DNA from: a bacterium
GTDB lineage: Bacteria; Zhuqueibacterota; Zhuqueibacteria; Residuimicrobiales; Krinioviventaceae
Assembly: GCA_029561455.1 (NCBI GenBank)
Contig: JAKQIY010000034.1
Span: 1 to 64,000, forward strand
Length of the DNA: 64,000 nucleotides
Reading direction: 5' to 3'
Shown: positions 2,957 through 26,553 of the stretch, piece by piece
Position numbering within the stretch: position 1 is the first letter of the stretch
Layout: every line of letters begins with the position of its first letter
Program-made: the position numbers and the translations under genes
The notes under the pieces: generated by a model
Databases searched by the model: none
Told to the model about the DNA's origin: nothing
The model's input: only the letters and a program-made list of their open reading frames with translations

Positions 2957-4624
2957 TTGAAGTATAGCAAGATATATTGTATACTACTGCTGTTAGTTTT
3001 TTTATTTTCTACTCCCTCTAATTCCCAGTCTCACCAGTCCTGGAGCTATAACAAGATCATCTATGAAGTCAACGTCAGGCAATATACTGAAGAGGGCACC
3101 TTTGCCGCTTTTGCTGCGCACTTGCCGCGACTGCGGGATATGGGAGTCGGTATTCTCTGGTTCATGCCTATTCATCCTATTGGCGAACAAAACCGCCTGG
3201 GCAGCCTGGGAAGCTATTATTCGGTGCAAAATTACCTCGATGTCAACCAAGAGTTCGGTACACTGGAAGATTTTAAAGACCTGGTCGATACTGCCCATAG
3301 CATGGGTATGTATGTCATCATCGACTGGGTCGCCAATCATACCGCCTGGGATAATACCCTGACCACAACCCATCCGGACTGGTACACAAAAGACAGCTAT
3401 GGCAATTTCGTGCCGCCGGCCGGAACCAACTGGACGGATGTGATCGATTTGAATTATAGTCAACAAGGACTACGTGATTACATGATCGACGCCATGCAGT
3501 ACTGGGTAGAACAGGCAGATATTGACGGCTTTCGCTGCGACGCCGTAAGCTGGGTGCCCCTGGATTTTTGGCAAACGGCTATTACAGAGTTAAAAACCCT
3601 CAAACCCGGTTTGTTTATGCTGGCGGAAGATGATGGTGAACAATACCAGGATGCAGGATTTGATATAAGCTATTCCTGGGGGTATCATGGTTTTGGCGAC
3701 GGCCTGTTAAATAAAGTCTATAAAGATATTAACACGGCTAACGATTTATGGAATTACCTGGGCAATGAACAAAACGCTTTTTCGCAAAATCATTACCGCC
3801 TGCACTTTACCGCCAATCACGATGAAAATTCATGGTATGGCACCGTATTTGAACAGTTCGGCAACGCGGCTGAAGCTTTTGCGGCGCTGACCTCGGTCAT
3901 CAACGGTATGCCGCTGCTTTATAGCGGCGAGGAAGCGGGTCTCGATAAACGGCTGGCTTTTTTTGATAAAGACCTCATCGACTGGCAGCCGCATCCTTTT
4001 GCGGATATGTACAAAACATTGTTCACATTAAAAAAAGATAACCAGGCCCTGTGGAATGGCGGCAATGGCGGAAAATTAACACGGATAGGGACAACTAACA
4101 ATTATGATATTTTTGCATTTATCCGCGAAAAAGAGAATGATAAAATTTTCGCTGTTTTCAATCTTTGTCCCAATACTATAAATATTACATTTAGCGGTTC
4201 GAAACATTTTGACCGGTATGCCGATGCCTTGGCAATGGACTCGGTCTCTTTTGCCAAGGGTTCGTCTCTTACTTTAGCCGGCTGGAAATACAAAATTTAT
4301 CACAAAGAAGCGGCGACTACCGGAATTATTGATGAGAGCGGGACGCCGGCAAGTCTGGTCTGCCAAAATTATCCGAATCCTTTTAATATGTCGACTGCAA
4401 TACTGTTTAATGTAACGGATGTGCAAAAAGTATCTCTGGAAATATATAATTCACTGGGGGAAAAAGTGAAAACGCTTTATAGCGGTTATACCGCGCCGGG
4501 CGCGCATTCGTTTGCCTGGGATAGTAAAAATGATGCCGGATACGCTGTAACCAGCGGTGTATATTTTTTCAAGCTCACATCCGGGGGCGAAAGCCAGGTA
4601 CAAAAAATGATGCTGCTGCGTTAA
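2957..4624 (+). CDS. Secreted GH13 alpha-amylase-family enzyme with C-terminal sorting domain
   Basis: The TTG start has AAGGA 7 bases upstream. Residues 1-23 are a signal peptide. The GH13 catalytic barrel is marked by its four conserved regions: DWVANH (Asp123), G-F-R-C-D with the predicted nucleophile Asp195, the acid/base Glu224 in L-A-E-D, and N-H-D with transition-state Asp289. A beta-rich C domain follows, then from about residue 473 a QNYPNPFN-type C-terminal domain with the usual final beta strands. The family hydrolyses or transfers alpha-glucans; exact specificity is not readable. The sorting domain implies export by a type IX-like system or surface attachment. It is a single-gene unit. 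Confidence 0.93.
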   Translation: MKYSKIYCILLLLVFLFSTPSNSQSHQSWSYNKIIYEVNVRQYTEEGTFAAFAAHLPRLRDMGVGILWFMPIHPIGEQNRLGSLGSYYSVQNYLDVNQEFGTLEDFKDLVDTAHSMGMYVIIDWVANHTAWDNTLTTTHPDWYTKDSYGNFVPPAGTNWTDVIDLNYSQQGLRDYMIDAMQYWVEQADIDGFRCDAVSWVPLDFWQTAITELKTLKPGLFMLAEDDGEQYQDAGFDISYSWGYHGFGDGLLNKVYKDINTANDLWNYLGNEQNAFSQNHYRLHFTANHDENSWYGTVFEQFGNAAEAFAALTSVINGMPLLYSGEEAGLDKRLAFFDKDLIDWQPHPFADMYKTLFTLKKDNQALWNGGNGGKLTRIGTTNNYDIFAFIREKENDKIFAVFNLCPNTINITFSGSKHFDRYADALAMDSVSFAKGSSLTLAGWKYKIYHKEAATTGIIDESGTPASLVCQNYPNPFNMSTAILFNVTDVQKVSLEIYNSLGEKVKTLYSGYTAPGAHSFAWDSKNDAGYAVTSGVYFFKLTSGGESQVQKMMLLR

Positions 4625-10165: not shown

Positions 10166-10359
10166 ATAATAATTAAAGCAATGAACAGTTCCCGGCGCGA
10201 GCAGGTAACCTGCCGGATAACAAATGAAGGCCGAGATTAATAACAAAGGCTGTGACCTGTTCTGTAAATATAACCATTTTGGGGGCGTACAAATTACACA
10301 CCTGGTTTCCACAGAATAATAAAAATGAATATCAACTAACCTTGCAGAAAGAACATGTC

Positions 10360-12540
10360 ATGAACAGGGTCACCGGTAAAAGTATTATTCTTCTCCTCCT
10401 TTTAACATGCAGTAATTTACTTGCGGCGGCTGATAGGACAAAACTACTGTCGCAATTCACCACCGATTCCGTGATAATCGACGGCCAGACCGAACCGGTC
10501 TGGGATATTGCCGAATCTTTACCTGTCGCCATCAGCATGACCGCCAACTTGTCCGCCCCAGCGCCAGAATGCAAAACCAGCGGCACAGTCCGCTCGCTGT
10601 GGGACGGCGCAATACTGTACCTGTTGATCGACGTGAACGATACCGACATCACTACCACCGCTAAACTGCCGGGCGATCAGGACGGCGTGGAAATATATGG
10701 CGATTTCTATAATGACAAGATGCCCAAAAATGAAGAAGACGACTGGCTGATCCGTATTAACTGTGTGGGAGATGTGACCGGCAGCGGCGCATACCAGGAG
10801 CGCCTGCAAGGCTCGGCTGTATTTGCTAAAACCGACAGTCAGGGTAAGCCATGCGGTTATGTCGTTGAACTGGCGATTTACATCGGCGGCATACCCATGC
10901 AAAACGGCTCGAAAATGGGATTCGAGTTTTGCATTAATGATGCTGTAACTCTTACACAAAAATGCCAGTATCGTATTTTCTGGAGCGACGGCAATAACAA
11001 GGGACTGGACGACAACAGCCGCTGGGGCGTCGTTAAATTAAGCGGCTGGGACGGCAAGACTGCCAAAGCTCTCGATACTTTTCTGCTGCGCGCCGCCATC
11101 TATAAAGCGGAAAAGCTGCCGCGCGGTATCTGGGTGAGCGAAACAGAACTGGATAACGCTCTAGCCGCTGCCAAACAAACGCCGGCAGCGACCAAACAAA
11201 AGCAAATCGACCACACCGCCGCCCAATTGGATAACGCGCTTCAAGCTCTGCGCCGTAGCGGTAAATATCCCGATCCCTTTGCTCTGAAAACGGTAAACTC
11301 GCTGCCGGATCCTTTCACATTTTTCAACGGCAAAAAGGTTGTTTCTGTGGCGGACTGGACTGCCCGCCGCGCGGAAATATTGGACCTGGCGCAGTATTAC
11401 GAATATGGATACCTGCCCAAACCGCCGCAATCAGTAACTGCGGTGGTGAATGACGACAAGATGACCATTACCGTTCAGGATAAGGGCGTTACCGCCGCTT
11501 TCGAGGCGGTCCTCACCATTCCAACCGTCCGGCAATGCGGTAAGTCCGGCCCGTATCCGGTGATTGTCAGTATCGATTTCTGGCCGCAGAAAGCCAATCC
11601 CGTTTTTCTAAAGGCAGGTTACGCCGTGCTGAGCATTATTTATACCAGCGTCGCAAGCGACAACTATGACCGCCAGGGTGCGTTTTACGAACTGTATCCC
11701 TACAATGTGACGACCGGTCACGACGCCGGAACCTTGCTGGCCTGGGCCTGGGGCGCGAGCCGCGCTGTGGATGCGCTGACCTGGCTGACGCAAAACGACG
11801 CCGCTTATAAAAACAAGTTCGCCCTGGACAAGCTGGTCGTTACCGGGTTTTCGCGCTGCGGCAAAGCGGCGCTGGCGGCGGGGCTGTTTGACGAGCGCTT
11901 TGGCGTGGTCAATCCCGGCGCGTCCGGCTGCGGCGGCTGCGCGGTGTATCGTTACGATTCCTTCGGCAACACGCCGCATCGTTCAGCGCCGTTCGGTAAT
12001 GTATATGACTGGGGCGTCTCCACCGGCTGCGAGGTACTGGGCGATAAAACCCGCCACCAGGGACATAACGCCAACGAGATGCTGCCGCGCTTTTTGAATC
12101 CCCCGCGCATTTACAAGACTGATACCCACGGCTATGCGGAACGGCTGCCGTACGACCATCACGAGATCATTGCCGCCATTGCGCCGCGCGCCGTACTCAT
12201 CACCACCGCCAATAACGATTACGCCAACGGCGCCGAGGGCGATTGCATCGGACTGGAAGGCGCCAAACCGGTGTACCAGTTTTTAGGCGTCCCGGCCAAC
12301 CTGGCGCTGAACATCCGCACCAGTGGCGAAAACAGTCCCTGGGGCGGCGGCCATTTTCAGGATGATGCGCAAATCGCCAACCTGGTGCATTTTGCCGATA
12401 TGGTCTTTTTCGGTGTTCCGCTAACAGAAGAACTGCAAAGTAAATTCTATACCAATCCCTACCTGTCCACGTTTGATAAATACTATGGCGAACTGGAAAA
12501 GATGATGCCGTGGCTGAAGGATGTGGCGGGGGGAAAATAG
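10360..12540 (+). CDS. Secreted CBM9-like plus CE15 glucuronoyl-esterase-like protein
   Basis: The start is ATG 10360, since the residues before it (open back to 10252) are not signal-like; residues 1-22 are a signal peptide. Residues about 28-235 resemble a CBM9 carbohydrate-binding module (I-I-D-G-x-x-E-P-V-W opening, acidic DGVEIY strand). A helical linker follows, then a CE15-type alpha/beta hydrolase (about 300-715) with the nucleophile motif G-F-S498-R-C-G-K and predicted catalytic His665 in G-G-G-H-F. CE15 enzymes cleave ester bonds between lignin and xylan glucuronic acid. The segment P-G-A-S-G-C-G-G has Ala where fungal enzymes carry the triad Glu. The gene is visibly GC-richer than its neighbours. 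Confidence 0.85.
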   Translation: MNRVTGKSIILLLLLTCSNLLAAADRTKLLSQFTTDSVIIDGQTEPVWDIAESLPVAISMTANLSAPAPECKTSGTVRSLWDGAILYLLIDVNDTDITTTAKLPGDQDGVEIYGDFYNDKMPKNEEDDWLIRINCVGDVTGSGAYQERLQGSAVFAKTDSQGKPCGYVVELAIYIGGIPMQNGSKMGFEFCINDAVTLTQKCQYRIFWSDGNNKGLDDNSRWGVVKLSGWDGKTAKALDTFLLRAAIYKAEKLPRGIWVSETELDNALAAAKQTPAATKQKQIDHTAAQLDNALQALRRSGKYPDPFALKTVNSLPDPFTFFNGKKVVSVADWTARRAEILDLAQYYEYGYLPKPPQSVTAVVNDDKMTITVQDKGVTAAFEAVLTIPTVRQCGKSGPYPVIVSIDFWPQKANPVFLKAGYAVLSIIYTSVASDNYDRQGAFYELYPYNVTTGHDAGTLLAWAWGASRAVDALTWLTQNDAAYKNKFALDKLVVTGFSRCGKAALAAGLFDERFGVVNPGASGCGGCAVYRYDSFGNTPHRSAPFGNVYDWGVSTGCEVLGDKTRHQGHNANEMLPRFLNPPRIYKTDTHGYAERLPYDHHEIIAAIAPRAVLITTANNDYANGAEGDCIGLEGAKPVYQFLGVPANLALNIRTSGENSPWGGGHFQDDAQIANLVHFADMVFFGVPLTEELQSKFYTNPYLSTFDKYYGELEKMMPWLKDVAGGK

Positions 12541-12718: not shown

Positions 12719-14227
12719 TTACCTTAATAAAATTAATTTCCTTGTTTGAACAAATTCTCCTGCATTCAACTGATAAAAATAAACTCCACCCGGAACATTC
12801 CCGGCATTCCATTCCGTCTGATGTGAGCCGGCTAAAAGATCAATCGAAACCAGCGTGGCAATCCTTTCTCCCAAAAGGTTGAAAATCTCCAACGTCACAA
12901 ACTCATCATAAGGAATTGAAAATTCTATTTTTGTGCATGCATTAAATGGATTGGGATAGTTTTGCTCAAGCAGGAAGGAACGAGGTAAAGACCTTACTTG
13001 TTCTTGCGTTTCCGAAGGAATATCTGACAGTAAAATCCTCACTATATCTAAATACCTGGTCCCGTAACCTTCGTAAGTAAACCCCAGAGTATAATCCTGG
13101 CCACTTGAGCTTATATCGGTATTTGTAGGAGCAGCGACAATTGTAGGTTCAATTTGGCTTCCTTCGTGCCACTCGTTGAAAGAAGTTATATCAATAGCAT
13201 TGATTGAGGAATCGACGTGATTTATTGCCATCTTTGTAAATTGGTAAAACGTGGAGACATTATTTGAGTCAGGGTGAATCTGGGTGGGAATAATATAATG
13301 ATTCACGTTCAACCTTACTGCCCGGTCATTAAAACCAGGCGTGGTATTCGGAATAAAGTCAACGCCTAAATTATTTGCAATGGCAGAATATTGACTAAAA
13401 ATTTCGGAAACATCATCAATAAAATTTGTATTTGCAGGGTAACCTGCATACTGCCATGGTCCGTGCATATTATATGCAGTGATGGCATCAAAAGCCGCAA
13501 TACGGGTCTGATCGGGAGAATCCCAATAAACCTCATCACCAACGATATAGATATCGTATCCGCGTGCAATCATGTCTTGCCTTAGTAACTGAAGTGCATG
13601 GGCATATTCCCCGGTAAATACCCTTGTCAGGTAAAAATATACCACCGGTCTGTTGTTAATCCGATAATAGCTTGGATTTGAGAAATAAGTTGTTGCAATA
13701 TAGTCAAAGTCAGACCGCAATTTGGCAATATCCTCATCATCAAATACAATTCGATCATTTTGAAACTTTAACAAATTACCTGATTCATATAATAGACAAA
13801 AGGTAGTATTATATTCCTTCACGTTGGTAGCGATCTGTGAACGAATAATAGTATCAATTTCGTTCCATGGTCCCCACCCCCACCAGCTACATATCCAGTT
13901 ATCAATACCATACGATTGTGACCATTCCAAATGCTTTTTTACCAAAACATCGGAATTACTATTGTATTCGTCAAGATAGGGTGGCTGCGGCGGGAGAAGT
14001 TTTTCCCCCAGGTATCCATCCGGCCAATGGGTATAACCGGTGTTCCCCCACCAGGAATAGTAATATACGCTTACCACTTTATCTGAAGCGATTGTATTTT
14101 CGTATATACAAAAGAATAATGTTACAAAAGCGACAAAGGGAAGCACCAGTCTGTTTATAGATATTTTCTCTTTTTTACACAACAGTTTCACAATATGCCT
14201 GATCAAATTCAATCTATCCCTACTCAT
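12719..14227 (-). CDS. Secreted GH99-like glycoside hydrolase with C-terminal sorting domain
   Basis: ATG at 14227 has GAGG six bases upstream and is preferred over ATG 14245. The roughly 502-residue product has a late signal anchor (about residues 24-46), a barrel domain opening with V-S-V-Y-Y-Y-S-W-W and containing the hallmark S-F-N-E352-W-H-E355-G, matching the two-glutamate site of GH99 endo-alpha-mannosidases/mannanases (also WbsX-like domains). The C-terminal 85 residues are a QNYPNPFN sorting domain like those of the amylase and the giant protein. It probably acts on alpha-mannan-like glycans outside the cell. It is flanked by copies of the structured repeat. Confidence 0.85.
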   Translation of the reverse strand: MSRDRLNLIRHIVKLLCKKEKISINRLVLPFVAFVTLFFCIYENTIASDKVVSVYYYSWWGNTGYTHWPDGYLGEKLLPPQPPYLDEYNSNSDVLVKKHLEWSQSYGIDNWICSWWGWGPWNEIDTIIRSQIATNVKEYNTTFCLLYESGNLLKFQNDRIVFDDEDIAKLRSDFDYIATTYFSNPSYYRINNRPVVYFYLTRVFTGEYAHALQLLRQDMIARGYDIYIVGDEVYWDSPDQTRIAAFDAITAYNMHGPWQYAGYPANTNFIDDVSEIFSQYSAIANNLGVDFIPNTTPGFNDRAVRLNVNHYIIPTQIHPDSNNVSTFYQFTKMAINHVDSSINAIDITSFNEWHEGSQIEPTIVAAPTNTDISSSGQDYTLGFTYEGYGTRYLDIVRILLSDIPSETQEQVRSLPRSFLLEQNYPNPFNACTKIEFSIPYDEFVTLEIFNLLGERIATLVSIDLLAGSHQTEWNAGNVPGGVYFYQLNAGEFVQTRKLILLR

Positions 14228-14400
14228 CTCAGACCTCACTCTCATTCATTTAATAGTACCTTGCAAGATAGAGCAATTTTTTATTTATTCCTGATGAAAT
14301 CCTGGACTAGTTCTGATACCGGATTAACTCATATATATAGTAAACATCATAATTTTATTAGCAATATACATGCCGCAATACTGTCCAGATATTGCTCTCT

Positions 14401-16122: not shown

Positions 16123-19100
16123 TTACTTGACCAGGGCAATCTTTTTTACAAACCGGCCTTCTTTGGTATTTAATACCATGTAATACACACCGGCAGCTAC
16201 CGGCAATTCCTGGTTATTGATGCCTTCCCAAACACAACTATGATAACCGGGATTGATAACCGCATTGATTAGAGTCTTGACCTCGCGTCCCAATATATCA
16301 AACACTACCAGGGAAATGTGAGAAGGCTCCGGCAATTCGTACCGAATAGTCGTGGTTGGATTGAACGGATTGGGATAATTCTGCTGCAGGGCGAACCGTT
16401 TCGGCAGTTCAGGCTGGACACGAATGGCTTCGTGTTCGGTCATAAATCCGCTATTTTGCACGTCCACCAGCCGGTAATAACAAGCGTGGCCCGCTTCTGC
16501 TTCAGAATCGGTATAATTATATTCGCCCTTTTGATTTGCCGGGATCAGGCTGCTGATCTGGGTGTATGGGCCTTTTTCCAGCAAGGCGCGCTGCACATAA
16601 AATCCCAGGTTATCCGATTCAGAGCGGGTTTTCCAGTTCAGTTCAATACCGGTGTAGGCTTTAAAAGCGCCGCTGAAACTCTGCAATTCAATCGCAGTGG
16701 TGATATCGCCCGTCCACACGAAAGAAACGCTATCTTCCAGGTCATACACCAGGGCAGTAACGGTAACCCTGCCGAGATTGAAATTTTGCGATTCAAAGCG
16801 GTAATTGGCCGCCGCCGCTTTGGGAGCCTGGTTTACAAACCACAGGTAATTGATAGTATCATCGGTATCATCATCGACCGCTTTAACAAAGAAATTAATT
16901 GCCTGGCCTTTTTTCAACGCGCCCAGGTTGCGGTTTGCCGGCAAACATTCTTCGGTAATTATACGCGGCGGACGGTTAACATTAAGTACAGTTAACTGGG
17001 CATACTTTTCACTTTTCGCGCCCACATGATCCGTTGCCGTAAATTTTACCACATACTCGCCTGCCTGGTTGAATCCCGGTCGCCATGAAAACACATTCCC
17101 GTTCAGGGTTGCGCCGCCCGGCAGATTTAAGGCGGAGAGGGTGACGGTGTCGTTTTCCGCATCAGTAATTGTTATCGTAAAAGACAGCGAATCATTTTCG
17201 TTTACAGCATAATTATCAGATACCAGGGTAATGACCGGGGCATTGTTTTTGAGCGCCGTGGCCTGGAATTGTAAAGGTGAATTTTGTAATGTACTGTTTG
17301 TGGCCGTAACATACTGGGTCTGTTTAACCGAGCCAAGCTGCCAGAAAGCCCGGGCCATTCCCAGGGAATCACTGGTTATCGTTCCCGCCGGAACAATATG
17401 ACCATGGCCGGTCTGCGGAGTAAAGAGTATTGCAATACCCGGAACGCCGTTGCCAAATTGATCCTCTACTTTAACCAACAAAGGATTGTTAAGCAGGTGG
17501 TCGGTAACACCGGTTTGGTTGTTGCCGCCGGTAATACCCATGCTGAACGCCGTATCCGGAGTGGCGGTGAGGGTGAACAATAATGTATCACCCGGCAGGG
17601 AGGCGCTGGTAACCCGAACCAGGTTCCTGCCGCTGGTCATACCGAAGCGGTAGTTGACCGAGGCCAGACCGGCAACATTGGTATTTTGCAAAGCATTGCC
17701 GATAATTGTTCCGGCGCCTGAATGAATAGCAAATTGCAGCGCAACGTTTGCGACAGCATTGTTATTATTATCGCTCACTTTAACCACCAGTGGTTCGGGA
17801 ACCTGCTGACCAATTTGGGCGCTCTGCTTGTTGCCGGAGTGGATCGCCATTTTTTGCGCCTGTTCGGCAAAAGAAAATACCCGGAAAGTGACGCTTTTTT
17901 GAGTACCGATTATTTTTGCCGTAATGGTGGTTTCACCGGCTGTTGCACCCATGGTAACCGTGGTTTGCGCAAGGCCGTTGGCATTGGTTTTCACCGTACC
18001 GCTATCTGCAACCGCCAGCAGGGTGTTGGCAACCGAAAACAAAACGCCAATATTCCTGGCCGGGCGGCCGTCATTATCGTGAATGGATACAACTAACGGC
18101 AGCGGTATTTTACCGTTGATCACAGTCTTTTGGCTGTCGCCGCTTACTTTTTCAATGAGCAGGTTTTCCGGCTGCATTATGTAGATTGTAAATTGCACTG
18201 GGTTGCCCTGCAAGCCGGGAGCATTGGCATTGACCAGTAATTCGCCGGCTTGTTCAGGTACCTGAATATTGGTAGATGCACGGCCGTCACTGTTGGTATA
18301 TACCGGCTGTGCAGCGGAGAAAAGAGCCTCTGTATTATTACAGGTGAACGTTACCGGATAACTATATACCGGTAAATTCTGCGCATCGGTTATGCGTACC
18401 ATCATGGGTTCCGCTAAACTTGAACCCGGATAGGCGATGATGTTTTCATCGCTGATGCGTTGAATTTTTGTCGCAGTGGTGGAGAAAAAGGTGATTTTCG
18501 CCGAATCTGCCAGCCAGATATTATCATCCGTATCCTTTGCCGTTATATACAAATCTCCGGGTTGGGCTGAACGAGCCTGGGCCAGGAATTGCCCCAGGAC
18601 ATTTGTCGCTCCCGCAAGGGGAGATACCGTAGCAGCGAGTCCATGAGTATAAATCTGCAATCTGCATCCCGGCACCGGATTATCATATTTATCTTTCAAG
18701 GTAACAGTAATTTGCGCATTATTGGCGCCGGAAGCGGGAACCGGCGATTCGGTAATAATAGAGGAATGGGCCGGGTCGGTTTTACCCGGTTCGCCATGTG
18801 CATGAAAAAGAACCGGTGAGCCCTGTAATTCCACACCTTTGTTCAAAGAACGGGCATGAATGAGATGGGCATTATTGCCGATCGCATTGCCTAAAGTATA
18901 GACAATATCGGCAACACCATTTTGTTTAGTGAGCACCAGGGTATCGGTGGAAGCGCTGAATTGACCGCCGCCGGAAATAACTGAAAACTGCACCGGCTGG
19001 TTTGCTACCGGGAAACCCAGTTCATCGTGAACAATTACCGCAAAGGGCTCCGGCAACGGTTCACCGACCGGGCCGGATTGCTCGGATCCGGATAACAGGG

Positions 19101-22100
19101 CTATGGTTTTAGCATTGGAAACAACCGCCCAGGCGCTGAAATAAAGCGGAGAATTGAGCAAGTGCTGTTGATTATACAGCGCTGAAACCGCCACCCGTTG
19201 TTCATTGGCCTGGTTCCCCAAACGCCATTGCGTTCCGGCAATGCCGCGGGAATTGGTTAAAACCGATAAGGTATCTTTGTTGTTGGCGGTAAATTTACCG
19301 CCGCCGCTGCTGATTTGAAACATTACTTTAAAATCAGGGATCGGCAAATTATCGGCGTCGCATACTTTGACGAACAATGAATCGGGCAGGATTTGTCCCG
19401 GCGCTCCCAGTAAACCGCTGGTACTGGTAATGGGAATGATCTTGTTGGCCACCCCGGTTTTGGTTGAGGCGTAGAACGTGACCGGGCTGCCGTTGAGCGG
19501 AGCGCTATTGTAAAAACTTTTAGCCACTACAACATGGTTGTTCGTACCCAGTTCCTGTCCCAGTGTTAAATAAGCTTCAGCAACCCCGTTGGTATCGGTA
19601 TTGCTGGTTATGGTTTTAAGACCATTAAAAGTGCCCTGGATTGTTTCCACATCGAATTGGACAGGGTGATTTTTTATGTTATTTTCAAAGATATCGGTAA
19701 TTCTAACCTGGAATGGCCGGTTGAGCGTCATGCCCCGCACTCCGCTTTGATTATTTCCCGATATATAGGTCATTTCGTGAGGCGCTTCGGGCAGGCCGGT
19801 CGCAGTAAACGTAATGGTTTCCGGATTCAGGCCGGCAAACACGGCTTGAATTTCGTTTGCCCCGCTTTTTTGTCCCAACTTGTAAACTGCGCTAGCTAAC
19901 CCCGATGGGTTTGTGGATTTTGTTACCAGAGTTTGGTTATCAACCAGACCATTGCCTTTTGCTGCCCAAAATTGCACGGCAAAATTGGTTACCGCGTTAC
20001 GGAATTGATCCATTACTTTCACTTGCAGGGGCTGGGGTAATTCCCGGTTGACAATTTCGGTTTGTTTGTCGCCGGAGATCATTTCGGCAATAGCCGCCGG
20101 GCCCGGGGTCGCTGAGGCATTGAAGGTAAGTGGCGAACCGGGCAGGGGATTGCCGCCAAAAGTTGCGGTAACCTGGATGACATAGTAATCCGTCCCGGCA
20201 ACCTGACCAGTGGTGAATCCGGCTTTGGCGTTTCCGTTCTTTTTGGTTTGCGATAGAATTTGTGTGCTGCCGTTAAATCGACCGCCGTTAGTCGCTGTGA
20301 AAATGACTTGCTGACCGGCGATGGGATTTCCCCAGGCATCGATAACGCGGACCGTCAGAGAATCGGCCAGCTTTTGTGTAACCTGGGCGGTTTGATGATT
20401 ACCGGAAATCGGCAACAACAGCGCCGGGTTGTCGGCAGTCGCCGTTGCTGTGAAATTCATTGGCGAGCCATTGATTGCGCCGCCATCCACCTTTAAAATT
20501 TGTGCGCCGGTATTTTTGCCGAGCAGCCAGTAACCTTCGGCAATACCTTCAGCATTGGTTAATAATTGTGACAGCGATTCCGTAGCTACCGGTGTCCCCG
20601 ACAGGTAAGCGGAATATGCCGCAGCGCTGATAACGCCGCCGGAATCGGACGTTACCGAGAACCACACCGGAAAGCTGACCGCCGGGCTGCCATTCTCTTC
20701 AAGAACTTTAACCTTGATCGGGGTGGGTAAAAAATGCACTACTTTGCCGGTTTGATTGTTGCCGGAAACATATTGCATATCGCTGGCAACTCCGCGTATA
20801 GCGGCGGTAAATACTACCGGGGAACCCGCTAATCCGTCGGCAGCGGCATTGACCTGTTGAATGCTGCTGCTCTTACCGGGCGTCAGGACTGTGCTTGCTT
20901 GTCCCTGGGAATTTGTAAGTTGCGAACCGGCGGGATTGATGACGCCGCCGCCGCTTACAACAGTAAATACCACCGGAATGCCGGCTATGGGATTGTTAAA
21001 AGCATCGTTAATTTTTACCACCAGGGGCTGGGGCAGGGGAACATTAACATCACCCGTCTGGCCGTTGCCGGATACCGCTTTAATAACCACAGCCGGACCG
21101 GGTTGAGCAGTCAAACTGAATTGCACCGGGCTGCCTGAAACCGGAGCGCTATTGTGCTCCAGGCTTGCCCGTACTGTAACCGTACCCGCAGTCTGGTTCA
21201 ACTGCACAAAACGCCGCGCCAAACCTTCGCGATCCGTCAGGCCGGGTGAGGTATTACCATTTTCTTCCGCGCCGGTTGGTATATAATTTACATCCTTTGT
21301 TATTAACAATTTGTCGATATGCGGGCGCCCACTTGCTATGTTAATTGTAATGGTGTGAATTCCCGTATTCAACGTATAGAGTATGGCATTACCGTCAGTT
21401 CCATTTATTCGTACCCAGCGCCATCCTTCACCGGCGGACAAGGTCGGCTTGCGTTGTGGATTATTATCAATAGTTATCCCCAAATTGTCGGCAGAGCCGG
21501 CATTGGCATAACGCAGCCAGACAATATACTGGTTGCTTTCAGCTATTTCCTGTTGAAATACTGCATTACCGTTGCTGCCAAGAAATGCCGGCAGGGAGAT
21601 AAAGCCGTTACCCGAAGCGGAAGCATCATAATACCATTGCATTGCGCCGGTCAATTGCCCGGTTTCGGCTTCGAGTGAAATGGCGTCATGGGTTACTTCC
21701 GGCAGAAATAATTGGGCATCGCCGCCGGTAACCTGAAATACCACATTTGCTCCGGGCACCGGACGTCCGGATGCATCCGTTACTTTTACGACTAGCGGGT
21801 CATCCAGTGTTTCACCAACGCTGCCGGATTGGTGATTACCGCTGTATTCACTAAGCAAAGCCGGTTCGGTGCCGGTATTTTCCGGTAGTTCCGGTTTTAT
21901 GGTTATCAACTGGTTGGCCGCAACCGATCGGACAACCACCAGGGTGCCGTCGGTAAAACGGGCTAACACGTCACAAGTTGTATTGGCCCCCAGGCCAAAA
22001 TGTTGGATGGGTGAATACTGTGAATTGTGCCCGGTTCCGGAAATGACTTGTTTATAACCCAGCAAATTTTCGCTGCTGCCCAGATAACCTGCCTTATATA

Positions 22101-24576
22101 ACCAGATCTTGGTGCCATAGCCGCCGATATTATTATCCGGGCCGTAGGTTTGCACCCGCAGGTAACTGTTGCTGTTTTTCAGGTTATTGCGCATACAAAT
22201 ATTAAAAGCGTCGGAACGGGTGACGAGGAAATCCATGTCGCCGTCATTATCGTAATCAAAAGCAGCGCCGCCGCGACTATCACCGGCATAGAATTCCGCG
22301 CCGGTATCGGTTTGCTTTTCGAACAGCCAGTTGCCTTTGTTCAGGTACAATTCCGAGTACGAAGCATAATTGGTTGCCAGAATATCTTGCCGGCCGTCAT
22401 TGTCATAATCAGCTACAACTGCGGAATAGCCGTCAAGGCTCATGTTTACCTGGGTTGAAATATCTTCAAACACACCGTTGCCGTTGTTTTTGAAAACCCG
22501 CAGCGTTGGGTAACGAACCTGCCCGGTATGCGTGGATGTGACAATCAAATCCAGATCGCCGTCATTATCCAGGTCGGCCCAGTTGGCGCCGTTTGGGTCA
22601 TATTTTGTATAGTCAATGGATATGCCGGCAGCGGCAGCGCCGTCGGTAAAATGGCCGGAACCGTTATTTACCCATAGTTTACTGGGAGTGTCTCTTTTCA
22701 CCGCAAATACATCAACATCGCCATCGTTATCAAAATCGGCTGCTGTAGCGGACATACTGTATTTGCCGTTTTCCGCAACATCTTCCAGGCCCCGCGTGGC
22801 GAGAGTGAACTTGCCGGTGCCATCATTCAGGTAAAATTCATTAATGTCTTCTGAATTCAGGGCGAACAGATCCATATCCCCGTCGTTTTCACAATCAAAA
22901 GCCAGCGTTGCTGTGGTGGTTCTGTAAACGTCGAGAATTCCGGCAGATTGAGTGATCTCTTCAAAATCCTGGTTATTAATATTTCTGTACAATTTGTTGC
23001 TGCCCGGTGAGTTACCATTAAACAGATCATAATCACCATCATTATCGATATCGGCAAAAACTGTTCCCCAGCTTTTGTTGGCATCTTCTATGTGAAATGT
23101 TGCCGCGCTTTCGGTAAACGGGAGTTGGTCATTGTTGACATAAAAGCCTTCCCGCGGTGCAGCGAGAGCGCTGGCTGTGCGGCTGATATACAAGTCGTCG
23201 TGGCCGTCGCCGGTAATATCGGCAACCGATATTCCTTTATAGGCAAAATAGCGATCCGGGAATCCGGCGACATTGGCTTCCCAGGTAATTTCCCGAAACC
23301 ATTTCTGTGTGCCGTTTAAAAGATAGCTGATGGTTTTATAATATTCTTTGCCCATCATAAACAACCCGGCTTTTTTGGGATGCATAGTATCCCACATTGG
23401 GTTGCTGGTGGATTCCGACCAAAGATATGGATTCTCCTGAAAGCGGGAAAATTGATCACAAGTATATACCGGTTCAGGTTGACCGGTTCTTCTGCCGCTC
23501 TGAAAATCCAGTACCAGGCGGTTGAATTCCATATTCAATTCAAGCACTTTGGCCCTGGTCATGTTATCGGTAGTATCTTCCATAGGGACGATAAGACTGA
23601 CAATGATGTAATTCAGATCAGAACCATTTTCGCCATTATGCCATTTTAACAAATAATCGACCAGAACCGCCATTTCACCGGCCTGGGTATTTTGGACTAT
23701 ATTGTCGATCTCGTAAGGACTGGTTTTTTTGTACTGGGTATTGATATTATTGGTGCCCAGGTGAATGGCGACAATGTTCGGGCGATAAGTATTCATGGGA
23801 TTGGTCACGTCCATATTACCGGTGTCTCCGCCTAGTAAACTGGCAGGATAAAAGTCGCAAATTTTTCGGGAGGGACGCATGTGCGCTTCATACGGCGCAT
23901 CACCCCAGCCGCCGACAAAATCAAAGTTGTAACCGTTATTGGTCAGTTCCTGGTAGAGAGATTTACGCACTCCTTCAGCCGCGCCATCATACTGACCCCA
24001 AAAAATCGAATCGCCTATGAGCATGATGCGGGTTTTGTCGCTCAGGATTATATCCTCCACCTGCATGACCCCAAGGGGATTACCGCTGCTCTCCACATTA
24101 GCTACCAGCACTTTGACCTGGTCTGTATATCTGCCGGGAAAAGTGATTTGCAGTGTGCCGTCCGCATTGAATTCACCTGTTGCCGCTAACTGAAAGTCCT
24201 TGTTGTCTTTAAACTGTTTCGTAAATATCCAGGCAACGGCCGGGCTACCCGGTTTAATTTGGGTGTTCTCAGCCAGGGTTAAATTGATTTTTCCGGTTAA
24301 CTTTTGCCCGTATTTCATATCTATTTCCACATCATAGACGACCTCCGCATCGAGCCGGGGGGCTTGAAGCTGATCGGTATTGGCGGAATTGAGAAATTTG
24401 GCGGCCTCGGAACCGCTTACTTTATGATAGCGTATGCTGCCGGGTTCTGCAATCCTGTAGGTCAGGTTGTCATTTTCAAAAGGCTCAACGTCAAAACGGG
24501 GCAGGTTAATATCTGCGCGGGTCATTTCTGCAAGACTAATGAGAACCACCAGGGCGACAAGGTTCCTGATTTTCAA
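16123..24576 (-). CDS. Giant secreted mosaic: SGNH hydrolase, FG-GAP, UnbV, Big_1 repeats, sorting domain
   Basis: The TTG start at 24576 has GGAG six bases upstream; residues 1-21 are a signal peptide. Order of domains in 2817 residues: SGNH/GDSL esterase (about 180-430; G-D-S190, G-T-N-N, D396-x-x-H399); seven FG-GAP/VCBS calcium-type repeats (about 445-800; D-x-D-x-D-G-D-x-D); ASPIC/UnbV (about 815-895); about 13 Ig-like Big_1 repeats (about 913-2450), most opening S-G-N-x-Q-T-G; a cadherin/PKD-like part (about 2450-2630); an Fn3-like part; and a QNYPNPFN sorting domain (2736-2817). A CBM6-like domain (about 966-1100) interrupts Big_1 repeat 1. It probably forms a long surface stalk presenting an esterase; substrate unknown. 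Confidence 0.9.
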   Translation of the reverse strand: MKIRNLVALVVLISLAEMTRADINLPRFDVEPFENDNLTYRIAEPGSIRYHKVSGSEAAKFLNSANTDQLQAPRLDAEVVYDVEIDMKYGQKLTGKINLTLAENTQIKPGSPAVAWIFTKQFKDNKDFQLAATGEFNADGTLQITFPGRYTDQVKVLVANVESSGNPLGVMQVEDIILSDKTRIMLIGDSIFWGQYDGAAEGVRKSLYQELTNNGYNFDFVGGWGDAPYEAHMRPSRKICDFYPASLLGGDTGNMDVTNPMNTYRPNIVAIHLGTNNINTQYKKTSPYEIDNIVQNTQAGEMAVLVDYLLKWHNGENGSDLNYIIVSLIVPMEDTTDNMTRAKVLELNMEFNRLVLDFQSGRRTGQPEPVYTCDQFSRFQENPYLWSESTSNPMWDTMHPKKAGLFMMGKEYYKTISYLLNGTQKWFREITWEANVAGFPDRYFAYKGISVADITGDGHDDLYISRTASALAAPREGFYVNNDQLPFTESAATFHIEDANKSWGTVFADIDNDGDYDLFNGNSPGSNKLYRNINNQDFEEITQSAGILDVYRTTTATLAFDCENDGDMDLFALNSEDINEFYLNDGTGKFTLATRGLEDVAENGKYSMSATAADFDNDGDVDVFAVKRDTPSKLWVNNGSGHFTDGAAAAGISIDYTKYDPNGANWADLDNDGDLDLIVTSTHTGQVRYPTLRVFKNNGNGVFEDISTQVNMSLDGYSAVVADYDNDGRQDILATNYASYSELYLNKGNWLFEKQTDTGAEFYAGDSRGGAAFDYDNDGDMDFLVTRSDAFNICMRNNLKNSNSYLRVQTYGPDNNIGGYGTKIWLYKAGYLGSSENLLGYKQVISGTGHNSQYSPIQHFGLGANTTCDVLARFTDGTLVVVRSVAANQLITIKPELPENTGTEPALLSEYSGNHQSGSVGETLDDPLVVKVTDASGRPVPGANVVFQVTGGDAQLFLPEVTHDAISLEAETGQLTGAMQWYYDASASGNGFISLPAFLGSNGNAVFQQEIAESNQYIVWLRYANAGSADNLGITIDNNPQRKPTLSAGEGWRWVRINGTDGNAILYTLNTGIHTITINIASGRPHIDKLLITKDVNYIPTGAEENGNTSPGLTDREGLARRFVQLNQTAGTVTVRASLEHNSAPVSGSPVQFSLTAQPGPAVVIKAVSGNGQTGDVNVPLPQPLVVKINDAFNNPIAGIPVVFTVVSGGGVINPAGSQLTNSQGQASTVLTPGKSSSIQQVNAAADGLAGSPVVFTAAIRGVASDMQYVSGNNQTGKVVHFLPTPIKVKVLEENGSPAVSFPVWFSVTSDSGGVISAAAYSAYLSGTPVATESLSQLLTNAEGIAEGYWLLGKNTGAQILKVDGGAINGSPMNFTATATADNPALLLPISGNHQTAQVTQKLADSLTVRVIDAWGNPIAGQQVIFTATNGGRFNGSTQILSQTKKNGNAKAGFTTGQVAGTDYYVIQVTATFGGNPLPGSPLTFNASATPGPAAIAEMISGDKQTEIVNRELPQPLQVKVMDQFRNAVTNFAVQFWAAKGNGLVDNQTLVTKSTNPSGLASAVYKLGQKSGANEIQAVFAGLNPETITFTATGLPEAPHEMTYISGNNQSGVRGMTLNRPFQVRITDIFENNIKNHPVQFDVETIQGTFNGLKTITSNTDTNGVAEAYLTLGQELGTNNHVVVAKSFYNSAPLNGSPVTFYASTKTGVANKIIPITSTSGLLGAPGQILPDSLFVKVCDADNLPIPDFKVMFQISSGGGKFTANNKDTLSVLTNSRGIAGTQWRLGNQANEQRVAVSALYNQQHLLNSPLYFSAWAVVSNAKTIALLSGSEQSGPVGEPLPEPFAVIVHDELGFPVANQPVQFSVISGGGQFSASTDTLVLTKQNGVADIVYTLGNAIGNNAHLIHARSLNKGVELQGSPVLFHAHGEPGKTDPAHSSIITESPVPASGANNAQITVTLKDKYDNPVPGCRLQIYTHGLAATVSPLAGATNVLGQFLAQARSAQPGDLYITAKDTDDNIWLADSAKITFFSTTATKIQRISDENIIAYPGSSLAEPMMVRITDAQNLPVYSYPVTFTCNNTEALFSAAQPVYTNSDGRASTNIQVPEQAGELLVNANAPGLQGNPVQFTIYIMQPENLLIEKVSGDSQKTVINGKIPLPLVVSIHDNDGRPARNIGVLFSVANTLLAVADSGTVKTNANGLAQTTVTMGATAGETTITAKIIGTQKSVTFRVFSFAEQAQKMAIHSGNKQSAQIGQQVPEPLVVKVSDNNNNAVANVALQFAIHSGAGTIIGNALQNTNVAGLASVNYRFGMTSGRNLVRVTSASLPGDTLLFTLTATPDTAFSMGITGGNNQTGVTDHLLNNPLLVKVEDQFGNGVPGIAILFTPQTGHGHIVPAGTITSDSLGMARAFWQLGSVKQTQYVTATNSTLQNSPLQFQATALKNNAPVITLVSDNYAVNENDSLSFTITITDAENDTVTLSALNLPGGATLNGNVFSWRPGFNQAGEYVVKFTATDHVGAKSEKYAQLTVLNVNRPPRIITEECLPANRNLGALKKGQAINFFVKAVDDDTDDTINYLWFVNQAPKAAAANYRFESQNFNLGRVTVTALVYDLEDSVSFVWTGDITTAIELQSFSGAFKAYTGIELNWKTRSESDNLGFYVQRALLEKGPYTQISSLIPANQKGEYNYTDSEAEAGHACYYRLVDVQNSGFMTEHEAIRVQPELPKRFALQQNYPNPFNPTTTIRYELPEPSHISLVVFDILGREVKTLINAVINPGYHSCVWEGINNQELPVAAGVYYMVLNTKEGRFVKKIALVK

Positions 24577-24936
24577 TTTTCACTCCATTTTATAACACTT
24601 TTAATTCATTAGCGATATGATACCAGATCACTTGAATTGTTTAATAAATTTTTTACTTTATGCTAATATTTAGGGCTAACCTGTTAATTGTTCCATGTTT
24701 GTGTATTGATAAAATTTACTAAAATATTTGCTCAATTCATATCATAAAGGTATTACTAGAGTTATATTATTTCCTGTCCCTTTAATACAGAAATTTATAT
24801 CCAATGCGTAAATTCCGGGCGCTGTCGCTTGCGCTTGTAGTAAAAACAGAAATAAGGAAATTTTTTCTTGTGATTTTTATTGAACTAAGTGTTTTTATTT
24901 CTTATTTTTAAGAGCTTTTGTTCAAGGGAATTTCGC
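24577..24936. other. Divergent intergenic region between the giant gene and folB
   Basis: An AT-rich stretch that must carry the promoter of the minus-strand giant gene. A short frame at 24889 runs into folB but lacks a ribosome site. No RNA gene seen. Confidence 0.5.
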
Positions 24937-24965
24937 TTGACAATAGCGGGTTATTTTAATATATT
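24937..24965 (+). promoter_or_regulatory. Sigma70-type promoter for the folB operon
   Basis: TTGACA (24937-24942), a 17-base spacer and TATATT (24960-24965) lie about 30 bases upstream of the folB start. The match to the vegetative consensus is near perfect. Confidence 0.7.
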
Positions 24966-24996
24966 CATTTTTATTAAGCATGGAATAGAAAGGTCG

Positions 24997-25362
24997 ATGA
25001 AGGGCGATAAACTGAGAATTCTGGGCATGACGTTCCATGCCTATCACGGACTGGATGACAGCGAGCAAAGAAACGGACAACGCTTTGAAATAGATATTGA
25101 ATTATCCTATGATAGTTCCAAAGCTGCGCAATCCGATAAATTAAAAGATACCATAGATGTACGAGAAGTTTACCGGGTTGTGTATGATATTGTCATAAAC
25201 AAACGTTTTTATTTGATTGAATCGCTCAGCCAGGCAATTGCCGATGCAATTTTAGCGCAGTTTGCCGCCGATCTGGTAACTGTGCGTGTGAAAAAACCGG
25301 TAGCCCCGTTGGGCGGTCTGGCGAATGGTACGGAAATCGAAATTACCCGCAGCAGAACCTGA
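24997..25362 (+). CDS. folB: Dihydroneopterin aldolase
   Basis: The enzyme converts 7,8-dihydroneopterin to 6-hydroxymethyl-7,8-dihydropterin and glycolaldehyde in folate synthesis. The chosen start ATG 24997 gives 121 residues, the usual length; the frame is open further upstream but that part is hydrophobic noise. Motifs seen: L-R-I-L-G-M-x-F-x-A-Y-H-G at the N-terminus, G-Q-R-F-E-I-D-I-E-L, D-T-I-D-V-R-E-V-Y, E-S-L-S-Q-A-I-A and V-R-V-K-K-P. It overlaps folK by 38 bases and the pair forms an operon with the kinase downstream. Confidence 0.92.
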   Translation: MKGDKLRILGMTFHAYHGLDDSEQRNGQRFEIDIELSYDSSKAAQSDKLKDTIDVREVYRVVYDIVINKRFYLIESLSQAIADAILAQFAADLVTVRVKKPVAPLGGLANGTEIEITRSRT

Positions 25363-25894
25363 CCCCGGATTGCCGCAGGTCTTTATCGGAGTGGGCGCCA
25401 ATATCGGCGACCGCGCCGGTTATATGCTCCAGGCGTTGCGGCAAATACAATTGTTACCGGATACGGAAATTATGCAGGTATCCGGGTTTTACAATACGGA
25501 ACCGGTGGGTTTAAAGGAGCAAAATGATTTTTTAAATGCAGTGGTGCAAGTGCGAACCCTGCTTTCACCGGAAGACCTGTTACGCGCACTGCAAAAAATT
25601 GAACAAAACCTGGGCCGGGTGCGTACTATTCACCGGGGCCCGCGTACCATCGACCTGGATATTTTATGCGCCGGCGATATAACAAGTAATACGGAATATT
25701 TAACTTTGCCGCACCCGGAGATGGTCAAGCGTCGGTTTGTGCTGACGCCTTTATGTGAACTGGCTCCCGATTTCCGGGTTCCCGGTTATGAGCAAACCGT
25801 GCAGCAGTTGTTAAAAATAACGCCGGATACCAGTAAAGTGGAATTAATGATGACCTCCTGTCAAGTTTTAAAAAAGCTTAATGAGGTTGACTAG
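25325..25894 (+). CDS. folK: 6-hydroxymethyl-7,8-dihydropterin pyrophosphokinase
   Basis: It transfers pyrophosphate from ATP to hydroxymethyldihydropterin, the step after FolB. The 189-residue protein shows the HPPK landmarks: G-V-G-A-N-I-G-D-R near the N-terminus, S-G-F-Y-N-T-E-P-V-G, Q-N-D-F-L-N-A-V, the R-x-I-H-R-G-P-R-T-I-D-L-D-I-L signature with Mg-binding aspartates, and L-P-H-P-E-M-V-K-R-R-F-V-L. The first 15 residues extend beyond the core and overlap folB by 38 bases, so the true start could be slightly internal. Confidence 0.93.
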   Translation: MVRKSKLPAAEPDPGLPQVFIGVGANIGDRAGYMLQALRQIQLLPDTEIMQVSGFYNTEPVGLKEQNDFLNAVVQVRTLLSPEDLLRALQKIEQNLGRVRTIHRGPRTIDLDILCAGDITSNTEYLTLPHPEMVKRRFVLTPLCELAPDFRVPGYEQTVQQLLKITPDTSKVELMMTSCQVLKKLNEVD

Positions 25895-26553
25895 TGACCA
25901 AACCAAGATATATAACCATTGAAGGCGTGATTGGCGCCGGAAAAACCAGTCTGGCGAAAAAACTGGGCGAATACCTGGATGCCCTGATCATTTATGAACA
26001 GCCGGAAGAAAATCCTTTTTTAAAGGATTTTTACCAGGATCCGCAGCGCTATGCTTTCCAGGCACAGATCTTTTTCCTGCTCAGCCGATACCGGCAGCAA
26101 CAGGAAAATGTGCAGCCGGATCTGTTCCACGAAGTGATGATCGCCGACTATTTATTCGCCAAAGACCGTATCTTTGCCCACTTGAACCTGGATGACCGTG
26201 AGTTGTTCCTGTATGATAAAGTAGCCAGCATGCTGGAACAGACCGTACAAAAACCGGACCTGGTAGTTTACCTGCAATCTTCACCCGAACGCCTGATGTA
26301 CAATATCCGCCAGCGCGGACGCTCTTATGAAAGAAATATATCCCTTGAATATATTACATCACTTAATGAGGCATACAACAAGTTCTTTTTCCATTATACC
26401 GATACGCCCTTGCTGGTCATTAACAGCACCCAGATCGATTTTGTAAACAATGCTGAAGAATTCAAAGATTTAGCTGAACAAATAATGCGCCCGCACTATG
26501 GCCTTGAATACTATTCCCCGGCGCATCAGGATAGTAAATTAAAAAAGAAATAA
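25894..26553 (+). CDS. Deoxynucleoside kinase
   Basis: GTG 25894 shares a base with the folK stop and has GAGG upstream. The 219-residue cytoplasmic protein has a P-loop E-G-V-I-G-A-G-K-T-S, the Y-E-Q-P-E-E-N-P-F segment for base binding, D-Y-L-F-A-K-D-R (DRS-like) and a lid R-Q-R-G-R-S-Y-E-R. This is the dCK/dGK family that salvages deoxyadenosine, deoxyguanosine or deoxycytidine; exact substrate is not readable. Linkage to folB-folK as here is common in FCB-type genomes (recollection). Confidence 0.87.
   Translation: MTKPRYITIEGVIGAGKTSLAKKLGEYLDALIIYEQPEENPFLKDFYQDPQRYAFQAQIFFLLSRYRQQQENVQPDLFHEVMIADYLFAKDRIFAHLNLDDRELFLYDKVASMLEQTVQKPDLVVYLQSSPERLMYNIRQRGRSYERNISLEYITSLNEAYNKFFFHYTDTPLLVINSTQIDFVNNAEEFKDLAEQIMRPHYGLEYYSPAHQDSKLKKK

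Follow-up and report, generated by a model that had tools for sequence, protein, structure and literature searches.

What is a gene of 2817 codons that seems to unite an esterase, an integrin-like propeller, a stalk of Ig repeats and a sorting domain: a true protein, or two genes joined by an assembly error? And if it is a true protein, what might it do? The gene lies in the window, i.e. the whole 64,000-nucleotide stretch of DNA that was analysed, which belongs to a genome of 5.85 Mb that is 98.8% complete and comes from an uncultured bacterium, probably of the KSB1 group.

Reading frame and domain layout

The gene is a single uninterrupted frame, and the coordinates and length given in a preliminary description, made from the sequence alone, are exact (Table 1). 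The strand, unstated there, is the minus strand, since stops are found throughout the plus strand. GGAG stands 6 nt upstream of the start codon, and the signal peptide already proposed is retained as a putative one.

The anatomy was established with Pfam, NCBIfam and models built from the orthologue alignment. From N to C terminus, the signal peptide is followed by a beta-domain, an SGNH domain, an FG-GAP/UnbV propeller and a stalk of 13 Big_1 repeats; beyond the stalk come a cadherin/PKD-like part and, last, the type IX sorting domain. On the 2817-aa protein, Pfam matched Big_1 in 12 stretches (6.8e-76), FG-GAP_3 in 7 stretches (1.6e-36) and UnbV_ASPIC (1.4e-8, in agreement with the UnbV domain described before), as well as Invasin_D3, He_PIG/Big_9 and FlgD_ig; Lipase_GDSL was weak on the full protein alone (0.004). 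Domain searches and structure prediction, the checks that the preliminary description proposed, between them recovered the SGNH domain, the propeller, the Big_1 stalk and the sorting domain. Note that the second part of the pre-sorting region (from about residue 2620) recurs ahead of many sorting domains in the same genome.

Table 1. Features of the gene and its conserved neighbours, in window coordinates
Feature (residues)	Position	Strand	Basis
Whole gene, 2817 aa, TTG start	16123..24576	-	
Putative signal peptide (1-21)	24514..24576	-	By eye: KIR, hydrophobic stretch, TRA-D
N-terminal beta-domain (31-164)	24085..24486	-	Kept in order orthologues; strands in model; 3skv/7toh match
SGNH esterase domain (181-425)	23302..24036	-	GDSL matches of relatives; 2vpt fold
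Catalytic Ser190, block I, GDS	24007..24009	-	Invariant in 15-sequence alignment
Gly222, block II, oxyanion hole	23911..23913	-	Invariant in 15-sequence alignment
Asn276, block III, oxyanion hole	23749..23751	-	Invariant in 15-sequence alignment
Asp396-x-x-His399, block V	23380..23391	-	His invariant, Asp 14/15
Seven-bladed FG-GAP propeller and UnbV/ASPIC cap (441-895)	21892..23256	-	Pfam; CRTAC1 9etn, Z 38.0
Big_1 repeat 1, first half (908-958)	21703..21855	-	Repeat model
CBM35-like module inside Big_1 repeat 1 (about 962-1096)	21289..21693	-	Profile and predicted structure
Big_1 repeat 1, second half (1108-1155)	21112..21255	-	Repeat model
Big_1 repeats 2-13 (1165-2440)	17257..21084	-	Pfam, repeat model
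He_PIG/Big_9 cadherin-like domain (2444-2530)	16987..17247	-	Pfam
PKD/fn3-like pre-sorting region (2531-2720)	16417..16986	-	Domain type read from sequence
T9SS type A sorting domain (2734-2813)	16138..16377	-	Pfam, TIGR04183
folB, folK and deoxynucleoside kinase, divergent, accompanying the gene in most genomes of the order	24889..26553	+	

The length and the mix of domains are out of the ordinary, and a frameshift or an assembly error joining unrelated genes had been raised as a possible source. This is not the case: besides being uninterrupted here, the SGNH domain and the propeller share one frame in 14 other genomes, 10 of which also keep the whole stalk and the sorting domain. The search of related genomes for the same architecture was successful, and we reject the artefact, whose probability is negligible.

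Head, stalk and export

The SGNH superfamily is marked by a Ser in block I, a Gly in block II, an Asn in block III and DxxH in block V (PMC9487903). All four are present in the window protein, together with the alpha/beta/alpha fold. Indeed, Ser190, Gly222, Asn276 and His399 are invariant in the 15 aligned sequences and Asp396 is found in 14 of them; the triad S190/D396/H399 had been correctly picked, and the oxyanion residues G222 and N276 can now be added to it. Block I usually reads GDSI or GDSF in the family, with GNSI in two orthologues. GDSL families match all 15 aligned relatives (best 8e-14), and the GDSL-family score of phylum relatives reaches 67 bits, above the cut-off. When the SGNH segments of CBM-stalk proteins were aligned, 30 of 35 had the complete S/G/N/D/H set; among the other five, two alignments end before block V and a third comprises that block alone, Asn replaces Asp in a fourth, and the last has lost the set (AGEDF).

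The solved proteins nearest to the 15-sequence SGNH profile are the PDB chains 2vpt (3.8e-12) and 5b5s (4.7e-7). The AlphaFold model of the head (residues 22-905, pLDDT 74.7) matches 2vpt with a TMt of 0.74 (E 7e-8) and also matches the acetyl xylan esterase 7toh, so that the SGNH nature of the N-terminal part is borne out by its relatives and by this fold. The matches to 3skv (SsfX3) and 7toh (PbeAcXE) extend over about 400 columns of the head, i.e. beyond the SGNH domain alone. Membership of CE3 was considered and not accepted: there is profile kinship to CE3, but the calcium loop of that family, DFVGXnDxD (PMC9487903), is absent from the window protein, which reads DFVGGWGDAPYEAHMRPSRKICDFYP with no DxD, as it is from 37 of 43 aligned stalk-protein segments. 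Because this motif is missing, we call the domain CE3-like rather than CE3.

The propeller had been likened to that of integrins. The likeness holds (Z 28-29 with integrin alpha chains), but the closest fold is CRTAC1 (9etn), with a Z of 38.0 over 440 residues. The seven FG-GAP blocks said to carry D-x-D-G-D are recovered as seven stretches, while the strict calcium-loop motif is found in only six of them, the seventh being degenerate (DCENDGDMD, about residue 562).

In the stalk, a repeat model built here recognized 14 Big_1 pieces, which make 13 repeats, the number estimated before, because the first Big_1 is cut in two by an insert of 125-135 residues. Ahead of the insert the match to the model breaks off at model position 51, and behind the insert it continues from that same position, which looks like a clean domain insertion. 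The repeats are 21-43% identical to each other (mean 32%), and 6-9 of 11 have a single orthologue repeat as reciprocal best match, mostly at the same ordinal position. This low identity and the repeat-by-repeat matching indicate, as far as sequences tell, that the stalk is old and its repeats individually conserved, rather than a recently expanded array.

The insert, overlooked in the preliminary description, is a CBM35-like module according to the AlphaFold model of residues 897-1262 (pLDDT 84.8). Model residues 66-200 match CBM35/CBM6 domains, namely 3zm8 (Z 15.8, rmsd 2.1, 125 aligned), 2w47 (Z 13.2) and 4qb2 (with glucuronic acid; Z 13.1), and Ig domains of intimin and FdeC match both flanks. 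The insert profile likewise found the CBM35 chains 5x7o (9e-10) and 2w1w (8e-7) in the PDB; Pfam CBM_35 reached no better than 0.017, with matches in 2 of 11 members, and the fold matches to CBM6 chains are nearly as good. The ligands of CBM35 modules include uronic acids.

The sorting domain scored 28.2 bits with TIGR04183 (cut-off 23), in line with its earlier designation as type IX-like. The same genome encodes SprA (897 bits, one 2077-aa frame), five peptidases of the C25 (PorU/gingipain) family and 18 PorV-type proteins above cut-off, and it carries the same sorting domain at more than 100 other places. An export route therefore exists, and the window protein would be exported by the T9SS. 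Given its sorting domain and the C25 proteins, it is most likely held on the outer surface by its C terminus.

Distribution and neighbourhood

The SGNH-propeller protein occurs in 19 of the 22 genomes of the order, the window's included: it is full in the latter and in 14 others, present as pieces at contig ends in three (G002, G010, G021), and broken in frame in G006 (L046:5156-6300, around the SGNH part). The broken frames possibly reflect decay or sequencing error, the latter being conceivable in view of the 5-contig assembly. Among the 22 genomes, the protein was not found in G001, G005 (73% complete) and G013 (80% complete), and the SGNH-propeller fusion was found in none of the 38 other genomes of the class.

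The stalk reaches much further. A split-Big_1/CBM35 profile matched all 82 phylum genomes searched (E up to 1e-3, plain Big_1 matches included), with a near full-span match in about 60 genomes among the matches listed. Twenty such proteins were sampled from different families; 18 have SGNH near the N terminus, and in the four of these 18 that were scanned with Pfam, fn3 follows it. Most of the phylum retains SGNH and CBM35 and lacks the propeller; complete family members keep 11-16 Big_1 pieces. The combination, previously judged unusual, is the standard form in its order, and the family of which it is a variant spans the phylum. As judged from sequence comparison, this is a real protein family and not a one-off oddity, with relatives in most phylum genomes searched. 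A Marinimicrobia-titled record with the full module suggests that its range may exceed the phylum. Two stalks of one family (L162 and L163, in G038 and G025) have the split Big_1/CBM35 with a head that is not recognisably SGNH, one of them with a DUF7257 match. Far outside the phylum, a 1059-aa protein of Actinoplanes lutulentus (L064:9098-12277) has an SGNH domain followed by an FG-GAP propeller, a pairing that is perhaps independent.

Paralogues in the window's genome show other combinations. P0002, which has no stalk, carries an SGNH domain and a propeller and shares 64% identity with the head; it lies within a run of T9SS-sorted secreted proteins (G000:C68:58000-85000; L011, L012). P0003 has SGNH, fn3, CBM35 and stalk, and no propeller. 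A pair of giant genes lying side by side (2270 and 2316 aa; G000:C76:22667-36500; L009:4665-18516) each encode a propeller, a Big_1 stalk and a sorting domain and are devoid of SGNH. This set suggests that heads and stalk are swapped as modules, in keeping with a platform for presentation.

At 12 loci in four families, the gene lies next to, and divergent from, one or more of folB, folK and the deoxynucleoside kinase gene. An operon with a polysaccharide locus is rejected, as the conserved neighbours are folB-folK-dNK, on the opposite strand; the gene adjoins folate genes and not a polysaccharide-utilisation cluster, so no partner names a substrate. In G001, of the same genus, the site beside folB is filled by other, unrelated genes (L168:4104-16000), which makes loss likely there and argues that the gene is not essential. 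Also in the window are genes for a glucuronoyl-esterase-like protein with CBM9 (10252-12540, plus strand), a GH99/WbsX-like protein with a sorting domain (12719-14245, minus strand) and an alpha-amylase with a sorting domain (2957-4624, plus strand); none of these three nearby genes is conserved together with the giant gene.

Proposed function and related systems

We consider it probable that the protein is a T9SS-exported surface rod presenting a carbohydrate (probably O-acetyl) esterase and a CBM35 to polysaccharide. The T9SS would export the giant protein, whose C-terminal sorting domain would fix it to the outer surface, and the stalk of 13 Ig repeats, predicted to be roughly 50-60 nm long, would carry a distal head made up of the SGNH carbohydrate esterase, a rigid CRTAC1-type propeller and the CBM35-like module clipped into its base. 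The CBM35, and perhaps the propeller too, would keep polysaccharide close to the esterase, which would strip ester (probably O-acetyl) groups by a Ser-His-Asp mechanism and so let the cell's other secreted glycosidases act. A surface rod with a de-esterifying enzyme had been suggested before; it fits the conserved catalytic residues, the stalk, the sorting domain and the T9SS, and the carbohydrate enzymes encoded close by speak for it too. As to its target, polysaccharide gains weight from the CBM35-like module, whereas the other candidate, another cell, finds no support.

The same parts could be read as those of an adhesin in the first place, with the propeller and the Ig rod binding a cell or protein and the esterase clearing or remodelling acetylated surface glycans at the contact. 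The Big_1 repeats do resemble those of intimin and FdeC, the propeller resembles integrin alpha heads, and the tandem paralogues keep propeller and stalk without SGNH; but CRTAC1 is by far the best fold match of the propeller, the CBM35-like module and the CE-type esterase point to glycans, and it is the propeller that most of the phylum lacks while SGNH and CBM35 stay. We therefore regard this reading as unlikely. Less probable still is that the protein is exported and then released as a soluble multidomain esterase: a T9SS sorting domain tells the export route and not the final place, and many T9SS cargos are released, yet a stalk of 13 Ig repeats, kept at 11-16 pieces in complete members of the family, would be of little use to a free enzyme. 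Finally, the substrate of the SGNH domain might be the capsule or lipopolysaccharide of the cell itself, on which the domain would remove or transfer acetyl groups, given that some O-acetyltransferases have an SGNH fold and a structure close to that of CE3 (PMC9487903); the domain's distal exposed position, the CBM35 and the lack in the ORF of an acyl-donor partner such as an AT3 domain make this highly improbable.

The surface rod presenting an esterase to polysaccharide may have a broader meaning. It is conceivable, albeit tentative, that a hitherto undescribed class of surface machines is common to the phylum, namely giant T9SS stalks on a CBM35-split Big_1 serving tethered polysaccharide capture and de-esterification; that their heads are exchangeable (SGNH-fn3, SGNH-propeller or non-SGNH) is an equally tentative proposal. 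If true, such a machine would have a purpose comparable to that of the cellulosome, yet in one chain. The window protein itself hints at how bacteria of the KSB1 group might retain polysaccharide outside their cells and trim it there. What looked like an oddity of one genome becomes a phylum-wide family of proteins in uncultured bacteria that is open to testing, and the predicted structure offers a clear case of a sugar-binding-type module spliced into an Ig repeat. A literature search, mainly in open-access journals, on the architecture and on KSB1 with sorting domains returned nothing relevant, and the family is apparently unreported so far; the KSB1 genome paper reports CAZymes, and a search of it for adhesin or Ig-like terms gave no match (PMC9012183).

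Each part has known counterparts. With the CE3 esterases CtCes3-1 (2vpt, C. thermocellum) and TcAE206 (5b5s, T. cellulolyticus), the window protein shares the SGNH fold, all catalytic blocks and the DFVG block II, but its SGNH domain, of about 245 aa, lacks the calcium loop, has longer loops and is fused to propeller and stalk. A beta-domain precedes SGNH as in the two-domain acetyl xylan esterase PbeAcXE (7toh) and the acyltransferase SsfX3 (3skv); by contrast, the GNSI signature is absent and identity is low (9-15%). The seven-bladed propeller with calcium loops and UnbV cap is that of CRTAC1 and other FG-GAP-ASPIC-UnbV proteins (9etn), except that it is bacterial and placed between esterase and stalk. 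The insert shares fold (over 120-125 residues) and sequence matches with CBM35 modules (3zm8, 2w47, 4qb2), but is nested within a Big_1 Ig domain. Tandem Big_1 rods are common to intimin, invasin and FdeC, and the intimin/invasin type first ascribed to the protein goes no further than these repeats: instead of an N-terminal translocating barrel (a Pfam scan of the window protein, E up to 1, found no outer-membrane beta-barrel family), its N terminus consists of the putative signal peptide, the beta-domain and SGNH, and a T9SS signal stands at its C terminus. The protein is thus of a kind already known, the modular T9SS-exported carbohydrate-active protein, to which it adds a variant.
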